Shown piece by piece: positions 3,865 to 23,951 of a stretch of 25,638 nucleotides of DNA. The position numbers were made by a program, and so were the translations under genes. The first letter of the stretch is position 1. Every line of letters begins with the position of its first letter. Below the pieces are notes generated by a model. That model was not told the origin of the DNA. It saw nothing but the letters and a program-made list of their open reading frames with translations, and ran no database searches. The DNA comes from a virus, in the IMG/VR virus record IMGVR_UViG_3300025704_000912, positions 1 to 25,638 of that record. The stretch is one strand, 5' to 3'.

Positions 3865-6159
3865 ATGGCAGACGAAATAGATAAGAAAGCACAGGAACTT
3901 GCAGATAAACTAGGTAAAGCTTCTGAGGGGTTGAACAGACCTTTCAAAGGTCTAGTGGATAATCTTGCAGAAGTAAACAAGGAGATTGCAATCTCCGCTG
4001 CAGATATTCGTAAGGATACTAGGGACACGTTCTCTGGCTTTCTATCTAAAAAGAAACTTGCCAAAGCAATGGAAGATTTTGACAAGACCGAGTTCGAAAA
4101 GAATAAGGCCAAGTCTACTGCCTCCACCGATGCAAGAGATAAACTTCTCAAAGAAGAACAGGCTGAAATCAATCGTAACAAGACACTCAATGAGATGAAA
4201 CGTAAAGCTGCAGGAAAGCAGTTTGATATTGATAATGATATCACTCATGGAATTGAAGACCGTCTTCAGAAACAAAAAGAGATTGATGAGATTCAACAAG
4301 AGATTGATAAAAAGGAAACTGAAATCAAAAAGTTCCGTGCAGCCAAAATAGAAAAAGCAAACAAAGAGCTTGAAGAAGCCGAAGAAGAGAGAATCAAGTT
4401 AGAAGAAAAATTTACGGAAGATATGAAAAAGGCATCTTCTAGTGAAAGGTTTGATAACTTCTCGGGTGCAATAAAAGACCTTACTGGTGGACTATTGGAT
4501 ATCGGTGGTATGCTTGATGATGTCACTAAGTTTGGTAACAACTTAAAAACTGTTGGGACTGAGTTTAAGAATTTCGGTAAATTCTTAGGTGATAAACTTG
4601 GTAATCCAGTAGATAAATTAAAAGACCTCTTTTGGGCCCTAGTCGCATCAGCAGGTGCATTCTTTACCACAATGAAAACTTCAGCAAGTGAAAAGATGAG
4701 TGCTATGGGTGAAAAATTCACAGCTGCAAAGGATAGTGTTACTAGTAAAGTTTCTAATGTAAAAAATAAAGTCGGAGAGAAGTTTCAACCTGTTAAAGAT
4801 ATGTTCTCTGAGAAAGCAAAACTTTTCCAAGGTAAGATGTCTGACTTAGGTAACACTATGAAGAACGGTGCAAAGACTATGGGCGGTAAAGGACTCAAAG
4901 CAATTAAGATGGCACCTAAGATGTTAATGAAAGGTGCAACAAGGTTTGTATCTCTACTTGCACGAATCCCAGCAATGTTAGCTGCAATCCCAGCAATACT
5001 TGCATCACCGTTTGTACTAATCGGAGCTGGTGTTTTACTTCTTGCAGTTGGATTAGTTCTTATATTCATGAAGTTCAAAGACCAAATCCTAGAAAAATTT
5101 GAAATGATGAAGACTAAGGTAACAGAAGTAGTTACCAACATTGTAGATGGTTTCCTAGAAGTCTGGCAGAAAGTAAAGGACTGGTTCTCTGATAAGGTGT
5201 TCGGTATCAAAAGTTTCTTAGGTCTAACCTCTGAAGAAGAAGAGGCAGAACATGCTAAGAAAGAAGTAATCAAAGAAAAGGAAAAGGAAAAGGAAAGACT
5301 TCAAGAAGAACAAAAAGAAATTGCCATGCAGGCTAAAGAAGCTGAAATTGATGCAAAATTAAAAGCAGAGTTCGGTGAAGATGCACTCAACTGGGGTTGG
5401 GGTAGAGGTGACAAAGAAGCAAAAGAGATGAAGAAACAGATGATGGAACAAGCAGAGGCTGATGTTGACCAAGACATAGCAATGGATGCAATCTCATCTA
5501 AGGATTTACTGCAAGAAAGGAATGAATCTGAACAGGATTATTTCAATGTTCAAGATATCATGGATGCAAGACAACAAGAAGTTGAAAATAGAGTTAAATT
5601 CAGTAACTTAAAAATCAATGGTGAAGATGCAACCGAAGAACAGAAGAGAGAGTTCTATCAAGAAAAAGCAGACAAGGGTGAGTTAGATGGTCGATTTTTT
5701 GAGAACGGATTGAGTTTCGAAAACGGAACAAAAGGGGTAACCACTGAAGAGTTGCTAGAAAGACAAGCAGCTGAAGTCCTAGATATTAATAGAGCTCAGA
5801 AAGAACTTGATACAAGAGAAGACTACATCCCAGCAAACGCTGGTGACCTTGCAACTCAACAAAGAAGAAATGAACTCCAAGGAAAACAAACAGATGATGA
5901 ATTCTTTGATGAGGGTGAAGGTCTTACAGAGAAAGAGAGAATGGAACTGACTCGTTTAGAGAGAGACCAAGGTGATAGGATTAAAGACTCAGCAGACCGT
6001 GCTAAAGAAATGGGCCCCAAGAGACCCGACCCTAGTATTACATCTGTTGCACAACAAAACACTAATAACAATGTAACCAACAATACGATATCTGCATCAC
6101 CTAATCCTAGACCCACAGATAGTACTATTAATAGAACTGCAGTTGTAAATCAGAATTAG
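3865..6159 (+). CDS. tail tape measure protein (gp29-like)
   Basis: At 764 residues this is the longest protein in the window. Residues about 80-200 are highly charged coiled coil (many K/E heptads), residues 230-370 are amphipathic helices with repeated GEKF/SEKA-type units, residues 365-410 are a long hydrophobic segment (LLARIPAMLAAIPAILASPF onwards), then another charged coiled coil to about residue 560. The tail end is Asn-rich (NTNNNVTNNTISASPNPRP). This architecture, and the position after the gp26 chaperone, fit a tape measure, which sets tail length and is ejected into the cell envelope. T4 gp29 is 590 residues; at about 1.5 angstrom per residue this one could span about 115 nm. It ends four bases into the convergent gene. 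Confidence 0.8.
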   Translation: MADEIDKKAQELADKLGKASEGLNRPFKGLVDNLAEVNKEIAISAADIRKDTRDTFSGFLSKKKLAKAMEDFDKTEFEKNKAKSTASTDARDKLLKEEQAEINRNKTLNEMKRKAAGKQFDIDNDITHGIEDRLQKQKEIDEIQQEIDKKETEIKKFRAAKIEKANKELEEAEEERIKLEEKFTEDMKKASSSERFDNFSGAIKDLTGGLLDIGGMLDDVTKFGNNLKTVGTEFKNFGKFLGDKLGNPVDKLKDLFWALVASAGAFFTTMKTSASEKMSAMGEKFTAAKDSVTSKVSNVKNKVGEKFQPVKDMFSEKAKLFQGKMSDLGNTMKNGAKTMGGKGLKAIKMAPKMLMKGATRFVSLLARIPAMLAAIPAILASPFVLIGAGVLLLAVGLVLIFMKFKDQILEKFEMMKTKVTEVVTNIVDGFLEVWQKVKDWFSDKVFGIKSFLGLTSEEEEAEHAKKEVIKEKEKEKERLQEEQKEIAMQAKEAEIDAKLKAEFGEDALNWGWGRGDKEAKEMKKQMMEQAEADVDQDIAMDAISSKDLLQERNESEQDYFNVQDIMDARQQEVENRVKFSNLKINGEDATEEQKREFYQEKADKGELDGRFFENGLSFENGTKGVTTEELLERQAAEVLDINRAQKELDTREDYIPANAGDLATQQRRNELQGKQTDDEFFDEGEGLTEKERMELTRLERDQGDRIKDSADRAKEMGPKRPDPSITSVAQQNTNNNVTNNTISASPNPRPTDSTINRTAVVNQN

Positions 6160-6380
6160 ATTAAGTCTGGGCCTCTAAGGATATCTGCCTTAGTTACCTT
6201 TCGATTGTATTTGGTTTTATCTCTTTGGACTTGAGTACGTCCGTGTGATGGTGTTTCCTTACGAACCTTAACTACTGGTTTCTTCTTACCGAAGATTTTA
6301 TCCCAGTTGTCAGCATATGCTGATTCGTCTGAATTCCTACGTTGTGAACCTTTGCCACCGTGCCATTGTTTGGAAGACAT
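6156..6380 (-). CDS. small conserved phage protein after S21
   Basis: Seventy-four residues starting MSSKQWHGGKGSQRR, very basic and with a NWDKIFGKKK motif; this pattern recurs, as I recall, in marine T4-like phages without assigned function. I chose the inner ATG at 6380 because AGGTGA lies just ahead of it and because the upstream S21 gene ends at 6385; the longer version starting at 6425 would overlap S21 and has no ribosome binding site. The stop overlaps the end of the tape measure gene on the other strand by four bases. A nucleic-acid-binding role is possible from the charge but not shown. Confidence 0.72.
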   Translation of the reverse strand: MSSKQWHGGKGSQRRNSDESAYADNWDKIFGKKKPVVKVRKETPSHGRTQVQRDKTKYNRKVTKADILRGPDLI

Positions 6381-6384
6381 GATA

Positions 6385-6618
6385 TCACCTAAATCCTCGT
6401 CTACCCATTGATGCTCTTTTTGCATCTAGTTTCTTACGTCTTTTTAGTTGTTGGTTCTTTTCGTTTTTGATAGTGTTAGGTTTGATATGATACTTCCTAT
6501 CCCTACACTCTTGAACTATACCAGCTCTTTCACAATCCCTTTTAAATCTGCGAAGTAGTTGGTCGAACCCTTCTACGTTCCGATTCTTTGGATTTATTTT
6601 TGGTGTTACACTTGGCAT
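6385..6618 (-). CDS. rpsU: ribosomal protein bS21, phage-encoded
   Basis: Seventy-seven residues with the bS21 signature: MPSVTPK at the start, then FDQLLRRFKRDCERAGIVQE (bacterial FDEALRRFKRACEKAGVL.E), a RDRKYHIKP stretch (bacterial RRREFYEKP), and a lysine/arginine-rich tail ending ASMGRRG. bS21 sits on the 30S platform near the anti-Shine-Dalgarno and helps mRNA selection; it is small, joins late and is exchangeable. S21 is among the ribosomal proteins known to be carried by phages, including pelagiphages. Here it follows gp32 after a structured leader and is followed five bases later by a small basic protein. AAGAGA before the ATG supports the start. Confidence 0.93.
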   Translation of the reverse strand: MPSVTPKINPKNRNVEGFDQLLRRFKRDCERAGIVQECRDRKYHIKPNTIKNEKNQQLKRRKKLDAKRASMGRRGFR

Positions 6619-6630
6619 AATATTTCTCTT

Positions 6631-6794
6631 AAAAAATGTGAAGTCACCCCACGCCTTACAGCAACCCGTTCTTCACCGACCAATCCGCTATATGCTATTG
6701 ACCTTTCCCTTACTGAGTACCCCCAATCTTTTTCCACGGTCTCAGTGATGCAGTCGTCTTTTTTCAAGGACACATTTTGAATATACACGACTGC
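6631..6794 (-). ncRNA. structured leader RNA candidate upstream of S21
   Basis: Read on the - strand, the space between gp32 and S21 holds four successive perfect or near-perfect stems. P1 pairs GCAGTCGT (6794-6787) with ACGACTGC (6757-6750). P2 pairs ACTGAGACC (6746-6738) with GGT-a-CTCAGT (6721-6712), one bulged A. P3 pairs GGTCAAT (6703-6697) with ATTGGTC (6684-6678), two G-U pairs. P4 pairs GTGAAG (6676-6671) with CTTCAC (6643-6638), followed by A and six T. The stretch looks clearly richer in G and C than its neighbours. The last stem plus T run resembles an attenuator, and the S21 ribosome binding site follows at once. Possible roles: S21 autoregulation, a riboswitch, or a processed gp32/S21 boundary. 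No known RNA family was recognised. Confidence 0.6.
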
Positions 6795-6815
6795 CCCAAA
6801 TAAGAAATCTAACTA

Positions 6816-7715
6816 CTAACTATCAGCAGCCAGTTTCTTAAAGTAGTCCATCGCATCATCTTCTTCTGCTTGAGGAGTAGATTCTGCTGATGCAACTACA
6901 GGTTCTTCTGCAACTGGAGACGTGTTAACATCTGACCATGGAAGTTCTTCCAAATCATCTGCAACTGACTCAGCTGTAGAGTTAGTTACTGCACCTGTTA
7001 ATCCAAGAACTCTATCGAGTTTCTCTTTTAACTCTTCGTAAGATTTAAACTCACTTGGTGCAATAATTCCACTTAAGCTATGTAGGTTGTTTACCACATC
7101 TACAAGCTTTTGCTCATCATCAAATAAAGGTGCTTGTGTGTCAAACTCTGATTTGTCATAGTTCCAGTAACCATCTACCTTTCTAATTTTAATCTTAAAG
7201 TTTGCACCTTCTTCTCTAAGGTCAAAAGGATTGATTGCTTTCTCATCTTCAAATGCTGGTGAGATTGCTTCCTTGAGTGCTTCAAAGATTTTTTTACCAA
7301 AACGGTACTTGAACACTTTACCTTCGTTAGCAGGATTTTTAGGGTCTGAGATAACAAGGATGTTAGACACATAGTGTAAACGTCTTTTCTGTTTACGTGC
7401 TTGGTCTTTGTTTGCCTCAACACCAGTATTCCATAACTGAGTATTGTATTCTGATACAGGGTCTTGTTTATTAAGAGTCGTTAAAGACTTCTCAATATAC
7501 CAGCCACCTGGCCCTTGGAAACCGTGGTCGAAATATGATACCCATGGCATCTCTTCTCCCTCGGGGGTGGGTAAGAAACGAACTACAGCGTAACCGTTAC
7601 CACTCTTATCGAGTTCGGGTTTCCACATAGTGTCGTCTGAGTAGGATTTTTTTTCTCCGCCTGTTGGGGAAGCTGATTCCATTGCAGCTCTTAGTTTATC
7701 TAAACTACTTGACAT
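6816..7715 (-). CDS. 32: single-stranded DNA-binding protein gp32
   Basis: A 299-residue protein (T4 gp32 has 301). The N-terminus SSLDKLRAAM is the basic self-association region; the core begins WKPELDKSGNGYAVVRFLP, as in T4 (W.L.LD..GNG.AV.RFLP). The C-terminus from about residue 245 is acidic and ends in an AMDYFKKLAADS tail, the part that contacts other replication proteins in T4. It coats ssDNA in replication, recombination and repair. The T4 zinc ligands are missing: where T4 has the NCSSTHGDYDSCPVC segment this protein reads KSLTTLNKQDPVSEY, with no cysteine. AGGAG precedes the ATG. Immediate upstream neighbour is gp59, as in T4. Confidence 0.95.
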   Translation of the reverse strand: MSSSLDKLRAAMESASPTGGEKKSYSDDTMWKPELDKSGNGYAVVRFLPTPEGEEMPWVSYFDHGFQGPGGWYIEKSLTTLNKQDPVSEYNTQLWNTGVEANKDQARKQKRRLHYVSNILVISDPKNPANEGKVFKYRFGKKIFEALKEAISPAFEDEKAINPFDLREEGANFKIKIRKVDGYWNYDKSEFDTQAPLFDDEQKLVDVVNNLHSLSGIIAPSEFKSYEELKEKLDRVLGLTGAVTNSTAESVADDLEELPWSDVNTSPVAEEPVVASAESTPQAEEDDAMDYFKKLAADS

Positions 7716-14157: not shown

Positions 14158-14403
14158 TTATAGACTCTTTTGTATTTCGTCCAGTTCTTTAAGTTTCTTG
14201 TTTATGATGTCTACTCTATTGGGCCAATAGATATAGTCCTTGTCTGAATCCTTTGCAAGATTCTCAAGTAGGGGTCTCACAAAATTATCAAGTTTGTTGA
14301 TTACATCCGTTGCAGTTGTAGTCTTCTCGATAATCTTTGTATCAATGGCTGCAAGTTCATCTGCATCCATCGCTGTAAATCCGAAGTCGTTGTATTCTGT
14401 CAT
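14158..14403 (-). CDS. small hypothetical protein with WPNR motif
   Basis: Eighty-one acidic, helical residues: MTEYNDFGFTAMDADEL, then VINKLDNFVRPLLENLAKD..KDYIYWPNRVDIINKKLKEL. The YIYWPNR motif followed by a coiled helix is, as I recall, a recurrent small protein in marine T4-like phages with no known role. The ATG has no Shine-Dalgarno; instead an exact TATAAATA ends five bases before it. An alternative start at Met12 also lacks a binding site. Confidence 0.7.
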   Translation of the reverse strand: MTEYNDFGFTAMDADELAAIDTKIIEKTTTATDVINKLDNFVRPLLENLAKDSDKDYIYWPNRVDIINKKLKELDEIQKSL

Positions 14404-14408
14404 AGTAT

Positions 14409-14416
14409 TATTTATA
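14409..14416 (-). promoter_or_regulatory. exact late promoter box TATAAATA next to an ATG
   Basis: On the - strand the box is followed by five bases (ATACT) and then the ATG at 14403. With T4 spacing, transcription would begin on the A of the ATG. It lies two bases after the stop of the SDR gene, that is, exactly in the intergenic gap. Confidence 0.5.
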
Positions 14417-21440: not shown

Positions 21441-21780
21441 CTTTGTTGCCATTCCTATGCAATTCCACAAAGTGTTCAGCATCTACTAACACTAAGGGTT
21501 TATGTCTGTTTCTTTTTATGACCACAAGTGGTTCATACCCTTTACAATTCTCTGAAGCTTGCTCGTATGCTTTCCATACGTTGACTGTTTCTTGGTTTTT
21601 ACATTCAATGGAATAGGGGAACTTCTCTCGGGACTCACGTCCCATTATAATATCTTCCCCTTGTGAACCCATGGGTCTAGACTCTAAGTCTTCTTCGTGA
21701 AGGTTAAGAGTGTCCACCATAAGTTGAGCAAACCATTGTTGTAGTTTACGACCTTTAGCTTTTGCTGACGATGTCTTCAT
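21427..21780 (-). CDS. PD-(D/E)XK nuclease, Holliday-junction-resolvase-like
   Basis: A 117-residue protein with basic N-terminus (SSAKAKGRKLQQWFAQ), then PMGSQGEDIIMG with D43, IECKNQ with E59 and K61, and a QAS segment; this is the D...ExK layout of small Hjc-like resolvases and nickases. It lacks any extra domain. It would cut branched or modified DNA. It overlaps both neighbours (IscA-like gene by 26 bases, RimK gene by 14). Substrate not assignable from sequence alone. Confidence 0.72.
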   Translation of the reverse strand: MKTSSAKAKGRKLQQWFAQLMVDTLNLHEEDLESRPMGSQGEDIIMGRESREKFPYSIECKNQETVNVWKAYEQASENCKGYEPLVVIKRNRHKPLVLVDAEHFVELHRNGNKDEII

Positions 21781-22081
21781 TAAATGTAATACTCACTCCA
21801 CATCCACACGATGCTATTTCATTTGGATTCTGAAACGTAAATGTTTCATTCAATCCTTGTTTCTCATAATCCAATGTCATTCCTTTTAGAAAGGGTTGAC
21901 TCATTGTATCTATTAAAAATTTAAACTTACCGTAATCTATTTCTAGGTCACCGTCTTTATATTCGTCTCTGATAAAAACATATTCATAGCCACTGCAACC
22001 ACCACCAGTAACACCCATTCTAACTGAGTCCACTTTCTTCTCTATAAGCTTTGCAATTGCAATGTCTGTGACTTCTATCAT
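21755..22081 (-). CDS. A-type Fe-S carrier protein (IscA/HesB/ErpA-like)
   Basis: A 108-residue protein with the three invariant cysteines of the family: C29 in TGGGCSGYEY, and C92 and C94 in ASCGCGVSI near the C-terminus. These proteins carry iron-sulfur clusters to client enzymes. Such genes are common in marine T4-like phages. Possible clients here include the radical SAM protein (three-cysteine cluster plus auxiliary cysteines). No Shine-Dalgarno before the ATG at 22081; an exact TATAAATA ends six bases ahead. Its 3' end overlaps the nuclease gene. Confidence 0.9.
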   Translation of the reverse strand: MIEVTDIAIAKLIEKKVDSVRMGVTGGGCSGYEYVFIRDEYKDGDLEIDYGKFKFLIDTMSQPFLKGMTLDYEKQGLNETFTFQNPNEIASCGCGVSITFNEDIVSKS

Positions 22082-22082
22082 A

Positions 22083-22100
22083 AGAAGTATTTATACTTCT
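22083..22100 (-). promoter_or_regulatory. palindrome containing a TATAAATA late promoter box
   Basis: AGAAGTAT and ATACTTCT form an exact 8+8 inverted repeat around two bases, and its centre reads TATAAATA on the - strand (22095-22088), six bases before the IscA-like ATG. The upstream gene's stop codon TAA lies within the box. Late promoters are not normally palindromic, so a regulatory protein might also bind. Confidence 0.5.
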
Positions 22101-22735
22101 GACTCCCACACACCATCCTGTTCTGTGTCATTTTTTAAATCTTTTGATTTCTTAGGTCGAATCAATTCGTATGGAATACCATCTGGCTGGTCTTCGGGTA
22201 CGTAAAGGAATCCAATGTCGGAACGGTTACACGTATCGATTGCATCAAAGATTGTTTCTACTAAAGATTCTCCACCTAAATTAAATGATGTATTAAATAC
22301 AATGGGGGTGCCATTCTTTTCACCCAAGGCTTTAATTAAATTGTAATAATTTTTATTCTGCTCTTGAGTAACCGTTTGGATTCTACATGTACCATCTGCA
22401 TGAACGATAGCAGGAATCTCTTCGTATGCTTTCTTCTTACATTGAATTGCAAATGACATATAAGGTGACTCTTCTAACTGCAACATCTCAAAATATTCAT
22501 GTGCATGTTCTTTTAATACAGTACCAGCAAACGGTCTATAATATTCTCTCTTCTTAATTGTATTAACAATTTGTTTTGCATCGGGATTAGTAGGGTCAAA
22601 TAAAATACTACGGTTACCTAATGCACGTGGGCCCCATTCAGAACTACCTTGGAACATTGCAACAACTTGTTTTTCTTCAACCAATAATCTGACTGCTTCG
22701 TCTTGGTCTCTAATGATTTCTAATATTCTACTCAC
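22091..22735 (-). CDS. carbamoyltransferase, C-terminal domain (NodU family)
   Basis: A 214-residue protein equal to the C-terminal (Carbam_trans_C) part of NodU/TobZ-type enzymes: GSSEWGPRALGNRSILFDP at residues 30-48, the carbamoyl-phosphate site, then YRPFAGTVL, ADGTCRIQTV and FNTSFNLGGESLV. It normally forms carbamoyl-adenylate from carbamoyl phosphate and ATP, which the N-terminal domain transfers. Here it begins on its own GTG (22735), preceded by GAGG nine bases away and overlapping the stop of the N-terminal gene by eight bases. The last 20 residues are acidic and variable. See the split-gene finding. Confidence 0.88.
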   Translation of the reverse strand: MSRILEIIRDQDEAVRLLVEEKQVVAMFQGSSEWGPRALGNRSILFDPTNPDAKQIVNTIKKREYYRPFAGTVLKEHAHEYFEMLQLEESPYMSFAIQCKKKAYEEIPAIVHADGTCRIQTVTQEQNKNYYNLIKALGEKNGTPIVFNTSFNLGGESLVETIFDAIDTCNRSDIGFLYVPEDQPDGIPYELIRPKKSKDLKNDTEQDGVWESEV

Positions 22736-23951
22736 TGTCTGTTTCCTCTGTTGTTACTTCTTCTGTTACTGGTTCGAAGTATTCGTTTTCTAAATGATAA
22801 TGCAACCAAAATGCAGCTCCAACTGCAGTACCACCATCGTGGGGTACAGGGTCAACGAATATATTTAATTCGGGAAACTCTTGTAGGTATCTGTAATTGT
22901 TTGTACAGTTTAATGAGAAGCCACCACTGAGAACTAAGTTCTTACAGTCGGGATTTAATTCTATTGCACGTCTGATAACACTACATGCATTATTAAATGA
23001 TTCCTCTTCACACATCTGTGCAACGATATGTCTATCAAATCTATCGGGTCTGTCTTCGTACAGTCTTCCGTATGATGCCATACCCATGACCTTACCCGCT
23101 GCACGTCCATGAATGTCTGCACCGAAGGCATAACTCATGTTACTGAAGTTCATACCGCTAGAAGGGAAGCTAGTGAACGTGAGAGGTAGTCCATCTATCT
23201 CTGTCTCCAAGTCTGTCAGACAATGAGCTGAGTCATAGTACATGTTAGGAAAGTATTGAGATGCAAGGTCACCTAACATACGGTGATTAGACATCTTCTT
23301 CCACTGGGGAACAATAGTCTTAGTGTCAAAGTCACACTTCCAAATGGATTCAATCTCTTGATAGTTCGGATGGGTCTCATGATAGCACTTAGCACCACCA
23401 CCGTCCCATGCAATTGCTATTGCATTCTCACCCTTTTCAAAGAAAGGACTGAGATAATAACCACTGTATGCATGATACATGTGATGTTCTGTGTCAAAGT
23501 GATACTGGTCTACGTCAAAGAACTGTTTACACATCTCATCATGAATGGTTTCATCCATTTCTTCGTGCCAGTCTTCTTTAAGTCCCACTTTGGGATAGGC
23601 TTTAATTAATTCTTGGATTCTTGCTTCGGTTAATTGTTCCTTTGCAAGTGCATCTGCAAACTCTATTGCAATGAGACGATTATCCATGAGATAATCTTTA
23701 TCCATTTCGAGTTTCATGTCACGTCTATCGAAAGATGCGAAGACTAACTCACCCTGTACGTTACCTTCCTCATCCACCAATGAATCTGCAAGACCTTTAG
23801 AGTCGATTACATGTAAGTGAGGTGCATCTAAAGTCGGTGAATAATACTTTTCACGTCTTTCTCTTTCTTCTTCGAAGAGTTCTACTACCTCTCCATCTTC
23901 CATGATACATAAACTGGTATCATGGCTGGAATTAATTCCAATTATTCTCAT
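22728..23951 (-). CDS. carbamoyltransferase, N-terminal Kae1-like domain (NodU family)
   Basis: A 407-residue protein: MRIIGINSSHDTSLCIMEDG opening, HH156-157 and H160 in TEHHMYHA (metal-binding His pattern of Kae1/NodU folds), AWDGGG near 181, GRAAGKVMGMASYG, LVLSGGFSLNCTNN and DPVPHDGGTAVGAAFW. This domain transfers the carbamoyl group to a hydroxyl or amine of the acceptor. It ends with EVTTEETDSE, an acidic linker, then TAG. NodU-family enzymes are usually one chain of about 570-600 residues. Known roles are O-carbamoylation of sugars or antibiotics; related phage enzymes have been linked to hypermodified cytosine. AAGGAT precedes the ATG. Confidence 0.9.
   Translation of the reverse strand: MRIIGINSSHDTSLCIMEDGEVVELFEEERERREKYYSPTLDAPHLHVIDSKGLADSLVDEEGNVQGELVFASFDRRDMKLEMDKDYLMDNRLIAIEFADALAKEQLTEARIQELIKAYPKVGLKEDWHEEMDETIHDEMCKQFFDVDQYHFDTEHHMYHAYSGYYLSPFFEKGENAIAIAWDGGGAKCYHETHPNYQEIESIWKCDFDTKTIVPQWKKMSNHRMLGDLASQYFPNMYYDSAHCLTDLETEIDGLPLTFTSFPSSGMNFSNMSYAFGADIHGRAAGKVMGMASYGRLYEDRPDRFDRHIVAQMCEEESFNNACSVIRRAIELNPDCKNLVLSGGFSLNCTNNYRYLQEFPELNIFVDPVPHDGGTAVGAAFWLHYHLENEYFEPVTEEVTTEETDSE

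Follow-up and report, generated by a model that had tools for sequence, protein, structure and literature searches.

A conserved structured RNA downstream of gene 32 in marine T4-like phages

T4-like phages are among the most abundant marine viruses, and to our knowledge few structured RNAs are known from them. Gene 32 of T4 is itself linked to a structured RNA, a translational operator in the form of a 5' pseudoknot that represses translation, and its mRNA is unusually stable and is processed by RNase E, which cuts at +831, near the end of the coding sequence, a cleavage that is conserved in related phages (PMC3014915). From marine T4-like phages come CfrI of S-PM2, an ncRNA of about 225 nt and of unknown function that runs antisense to psbA and to a homing endonuclease gene (PMC2984593), and the manA and wcaG motifs of cyanophages, structured RNAs presumed to be cis-regulators in 5' UTRs (PMC2864571). 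Conserved structured RNAs that follow a gene are rare in bacteria, the L17 downstream element in a 3' UTR being one (PMC2864571), and the ribosomal-protein autoregulatory leaders in Rfam are conserved multi-stem RNAs near a ribosomal protein gene. The RNA described here lies directly after gp32 and departs from all of these: it is 3' rather than 5' of the gene, larger than the T4 operator and differently folded, so that the operator pseudoknot is ruled out; unlike CfrI it is sense, intergenic and conserved by structure; it matches neither the manA nor the wcaG model in Rfam searches; it differs from the L17 downstream element in gene, lineage and fold and has no Rfam match; and, unlike ribosomal-protein leaders, it is not consistently upstream of S21 or of any other ribosomal protein gene.

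The window, the whole stretch of 25,638 nucleotides that was analysed (IMG/VR record IMGVR_UViG_3300025704_000912), is a fragment of a marine T4-like phage. On its minus strand gp32 (6816-7715) is followed by a 197-nt gap (6619-6815), the S21 gene (6385-6618) and a small ORF (6156-6425), a block that is faced by a plus-strand tape-measure-like gene (3865-6159). A sequence-only reading had drawn four stems (8, 9 with one bulge, 7 and 6 pairs) in the gap on the S21 strand, with six T directly after the last, and all of these are present where it placed them. The RNA, which we term type A, and its two neighbours are laid out as follows:

6816-7715, minus strand: gp32, single-stranded-DNA-binding protein (Pfam PF08804, E 9.9e-39), adjoining the RNA upstream
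6631-6797, minus strand: structured RNA, type A, stems P1-P4, from a conserved GGGG (6797) to the end of the U-run (6631)
6787-6794/6750-6757, minus strand: P1, 8 pairs
6787-6794, minus strand: P1 5' arm, GCAGUCGU (own-arm versus swapped-arm energy)
6758-6786, minus strand: P1 loop with a conserved AUGUGUCC-like element (alignments A1 and A3)
6750-6757, minus strand: P1 3' arm, ACGACUGC (own-arm versus swapped-arm energy)
6738-6746/6712-6721, minus strand: P2, 9 pairs with one bulge (double changes at 5 of 9 pairs)
6738-6746, minus strand: P2 5' arm, ACUGAGACC
6712-6721, minus strand: P2 3' arm, GGUACUCAGU, preceded by an invariant GGG (6722-6724)
6704-6711, minus strand: P2-P3 junction, AAGGGAAA, near invariant (UGAGGAAA is the type B equivalent)
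6697-6703/6678-6684, minus strand: P3, 7 pairs (double changes at 6 of 7 pairs)
6697-6703, minus strand: P3 5' arm, GGUCAAU
6685-6696, minus strand: P3 loop, AGCAUAUAGCGG, its GCGG kept in types A and B
6678-6684, minus strand: P3 3' arm, AUUGGUC
6671-6676/6638-6643, minus strand: P4, 6 pairs (inner P4 helix, double changes at 5 of 6 pairs)
6671-6676, minus strand: P4 5' arm, GUGAAG
6644-6670, minus strand: P4 interior with an AC/GU pair step, GGG and GGGG strands and a small hairpin GCU-GUAA-GGC (invariant A1 columns)
6638-6643, minus strand: P4 3' arm, CUUCAC
6631-6636, minus strand: U-run TTTTTT after P4, terminator-like (direct sequence)
6385-6618, minus strand: bS21, phage ribosomal protein (PF01165, E 5.7e-13), downstream neighbour in the window's lineage only

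The stretch 6631-6794 folds more strongly than 200 of 200 dinucleotide shuffles (z -3.2), and the whole gap reaches a z of -2.75 against its shuffles. Two further points of the sequence-only reading stood in part: the stretch is indeed relatively GC-rich (45% G+C versus 38% in the window, in the top 2% of 164-nt stretches), an enrichment that is modest and not striking, and the S21 ribosome binding site placed after the U-run (AAGAGAAATATT) is only a weak Shine-Dalgarno match. A tRNA and tmRNA scan found none.

Contigs of relatives were fetched with the S21 and gp32 proteins and the gap was compared in about 70 distinct sequences, across which the loop motifs are nearly invariant while the stems vary by compensation. 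In a structure-blind MAFFT alignment of 38 sequences (A1), the 24 pairs of P2-P4 form in 97.4%, double changes occur in 17 of the 24, and compensatory double-change cells number 160 compared to 40 when shuffled, a count that none of 500 shuffles reached; sliding the partner by 1-3 columns leaves pairing at only 30-41%. The AC/GU step in the P4 interior switches from A-U to G-C in 13 of the 38 sequences. P1 is poorly registered in A1 and was therefore judged by an arm-swap test (24 representatives, less than 80% identical), where its own arms gave -14.5 kcal/mol and swapped arms -5.7 kcal/mol (p at most 1e-4), and all four stems, P1 included, beat 10,000 arm permutations (p at most 1e-4). Compensatory changes, sought in relatives as a check on the proposed stems, were thus found for each of P1-P4. 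Because G-U outnumber A-C combinations in the stem pairs by 44 to 8, the functional strand is the gp32-sense strand; the plus strand also folds well (z -4.9), but was rejected by this count. Hence a covarying, non-coding RNA on the S21 strand, as originally proposed, is supported, and the stems then drawn are the ones that evolution has kept.

A small protein-coding gene could be suspected from the one frame that stays open in the window, as it does in 12 of 42 relatives. Yet this is the best frame, most relatives have stops in all frames, the distance between invariant motifs (51-60) shifts by single nucleotides, so that length changes do not come in threes, and the frame in the window has no Pfam or PHROG match. 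A conserved coding gene is therefore refuted, and the chance of any small gene here is negligible. We regard it as virtually certain that this is a real, conserved ncRNA.

A model built on P2-P4 (R1) finds the RNA in about 90 further loci; its match to window positions 6631-6747 (128.7 bits, E 2.5e-26) holds by construction, because an identical relative is included in the model. Each of 17 long contigs carries one copy, with a second weak site in one contig (E 1.1), and pattern matches away from gp32 (L162, L166 and others) had no model support and were dismissed as chance. In L113 P1 is deleted, the gap after gp32 measures 180 nt and P2-P4 are kept, and L129 has a shortened P1 with P2-P4 kept; both variants are consistent with P2-P4 being the core of the RNA.

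At the same place, phages with a gp32 about 60% identical carry a diverged RNA (type B). Its P1-like hairpin has a UCGUGUC loop and is accompanied by an extra hairpin; P2 bears a GGGG loop, the junction reads UGAGGAAAG, P3 contains GCGGCAG and P4 has the form GC-GGG...GGGG-C. Type B shows covariation of its own (19 double-change cells versus 6 shuffled), and GUGUC is common to the P1 loops of both types (alignments A1 and A3). With E values of 7e-4 to 0.4, R1 matches 14 type B loci where the RNA is expected, the bridging locus L301 is also matched by model R2 (E 4e-13), and in the reverse search R2 recovers a single type A locus out of 19 (L096), at a weak E of 0.056. Judged by these weak model scores, the identical position and the shared motifs, types A and B are likely homologous. 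A short form of about 97 nt (L303-L306) has P2-P4 only, compared with P1-P4 in type A and the P1-like stem, P2, P3 and P4 in type B, and a same-strand gene lies 36 nt downstream of it in L303 and L305.

Type B also comes with signals of its own. A TATAAATA box, the late promoter of T4 and KVP40 (cyanophage S-PM2 uses NATAAATA; PMC2984593), separates the gp32 stop from the RNA in each of the 23 type B cases inspected; near the gp32 stop of type A, the type of the window, it occurs in 0 of 70, and synonymous conservation at the 3' end of type A gp32, sought as a sign of a hidden promoter, revealed nothing decisive. Among 16 full-length type B loci examined, 15 have a convergent ORF, a tail gene, whose stop falls 1-19 nt past the RNA, and none of the 15 has a same-strand ORF starting within 150 nt, while the contig of the sixteenth (L296) ends too soon after the RNA to tell. 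As the convergent gene leaves nothing to lead, the full-length type B RNA cannot be a leader, and the late-promoter box together with the convergent gene directly after it predicts a transcript that consists of the RNA alone.

In the window, TATAAATA boxes are found at 14409-14416 and 22088-22095 (both minus strand), 5-6 nt 5' of the start codons of ORFs 14158-14403 and 21755-22081, the latter encoding a HesB-like Fe-S protein. Since these boxes precede two ORFs, they suggest that the window's phage group uses T4-type late promoters, although its gp32 RNA has none. Nearby, the overlapping minus-strand ORFs 22091-22735 and 22728-23951 are presumably the C- and N-terminal halves of one carbamoyltransferase.

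Database searches gave no sign of a known family. The Rfam 15 gathering scan of the window returned no family match, permissive Rfam scans with the window region, types A and B and the short form returned chance-level matches only, and a DNA search of annotated phages with the gap sequence had no match. We found no earlier description in the open-access literature, a scope outside which a 2017 survey of 224 candidate RNAs falls; motifs such as those of that survey are normally in Rfam. The surmise that the RNA was undescribed has thus held in Rfam, annotated phage records and this literature. A DNA-pattern scan of bacterial genomes yielded one real match among the matches listed, L409 (JAAXIF010000105.1, 121 kb), a contig of a Sphingobacteriales MAG that is evidently a T4-like phage of the RNA-bearing group, misbinned in a bacterial MAG. 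No cellular homologue turned up in 142 genomes from the class to which one alphaproteobacterial MAG belongs, in a search that had no positive control.

Beyond the RNA-bearing phages, the nearest gp32 proteins from isolates share about 55% identity, and what comes next in those phages is a simple terminator, a gene or another RNA; in the RNA-less relatives HTVC008M, Mosig and cyanophages, gp32 is succeeded by a simple terminator or a coding gene. One other clade, which includes the isolated OM43 phage Melnitz, carries, after the gp32 stop and ahead of a strong terminator, a conserved folded stretch of another kind (type C), with motifs such as GGTATACTAG..ATCCTTGGTGTGCAGTAAG..AACACCACACTGAAAAGACTAG, and that of L149 has no Rfam match above chance. 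The type C loci are:

L149, 3868-3970; L599, L602, L603, L605, L609, L611, L612 and L619
Melnitz (L358), 2380-2480; L614-L618

The sequence-only reading had taken the RNA for an attenuator or autoregulatory leader that senses S21 or its S6/S18 neighbours. This is attractive, as S21 is the next gene in 69 distinct type A sequences and often starts about 12-20 nt past the U-run, but it proved misleading. It is gp32 that directly precedes every model-confirmed copy with enough upstream sequence, whereas the downstream gene varies between groups: in 19 type A sequences a DNA methyltransferase-like gene comes next (in one phage group, the RNA and S21 are parted by an inserted gene of this kind, about 295 codons long; L074-L080, L084-L088, L091, L093, L096, L102, L103, L114, L118, L127, L128 and L409), and in nearly all full-length type B loci it is the convergent gene. 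Moreover, a sigma70-like promoter (TAGACA-N17-18-TATAAT) separates the RNA from S21 in L054, L056, L070, L107 and L113, and RNA-less HTVC008M, Mosig and Melnitz carry S21 elsewhere in the genome. In the type B phages L132-L143, except L137 and L142, S21 lies about 1.3-1.7 kb upstream of gp32, so that this gene has moved around the gp32 locus. The leader claim is left unsupported and is very improbable, with the ribosomal protein gene a bystander, although read-through may have a secondary effect on S21 in the window phage. A broader version, in which the RNA is a leader or riboswitch for whichever gene follows and P4 is its expression platform, could draw on P4, which looks like a terminator and, in type A and the short form L303-L306, sits beside the start codon that follows. 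This, too, we consider improbable, as most type B RNAs have no gene to lead, the downstream genes are varied and functionally unrelated, and a non-systematic look at the folds showed no alternative anti-terminator pairing.

The main rival is a cis-acting element in the gp32 3' UTR that tunes or protects the gp32 mRNA through stability, termination or perhaps binding by gp32 itself. The fixed place directly after gp32, the terminator-like P4 and U-run, the stability and processing of the T4 counterpart (PMC3014915) and the type C stretch at the same place before a strong terminator all speak for it, and the absence of late-promoter boxes from type A is compatible with a cis role. However, a simple terminator is enough in many relatives, the near-invariant loops exceed what mRNA protection needs and in type B the promoter box parts gp32 from the RNA, so that we judge the 3'-UTR role unlikely overall. 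We are fairly confident that the RNA is instead free-standing in function, and it is likely that it constitutes a new family of structured ncRNAs after gene 32 in a broad marine T4-like group that does not act as leader of the downstream gene. Several observations pull the other way: lacking the box, type A may exist only within gp32 mRNA; the U-run is imperfect in many members (at least four T follow P4 in 45 of 70 distinct type A RNAs, and 25 of 70 are without four T); a same-strand gene follows the RNA in L133, L134 and L141, as in L303 and L305; and the case for homology of types A and B is built from weak model scores together with their identical position and the motifs they share.

If the RNA is free-standing, the predicted product is a free RNA of about 100-180 nt. 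Type B would be made late from its own promoter, whereas type A, including that of the window, would form the 3' end of gp32 transcripts, with the P4 hairpin and U-run as terminator, and might be released by a cut close to the gp32 stop codon, comparable to that made by RNase E in T4 gene 32 (PMC3014915). The RNA would then have a trans function, its conserved G-rich loops binding a protein or particle of phage or host. Such a partner is suggested because the junction and loops, the single-stranded parts, are G-rich and near-invariant, and we see about an even chance that the RNA binds a protein or RNP rather than pairing as an antisense RNA. Pairing of the G-rich junction with the anti-Shine-Dalgarno tail of the ribosome was considered and rejected, the duplex energies of type A and of most type B RNAs being no more favourable than those of shuffled sequences.

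The gp32 RNA adds a new family to a kind already known, the orphan structured phage ncRNA. More tentatively, and with rather less than even probability, it could be a dedicated trans-acting phage RNA that is expressed late in one lineage, uses its conserved G-rich loops to bind a machine of host or phage (RNA polymerase, the ribosome, or a replication or packaging complex, for instance) and is core to the infection programme of these phages, which are abundant in the sea; if true, this would represent a previously undescribed functional class of phage RNA. With its covariance pattern, a minimal form of about 97 nt and a clear genomic address, the RNA is directly testable, and a single-copy, strongly covarying RNA beside a core replication gene, preceded in one lineage by a late-promoter box, makes a good candidate for a step of infection not yet known.
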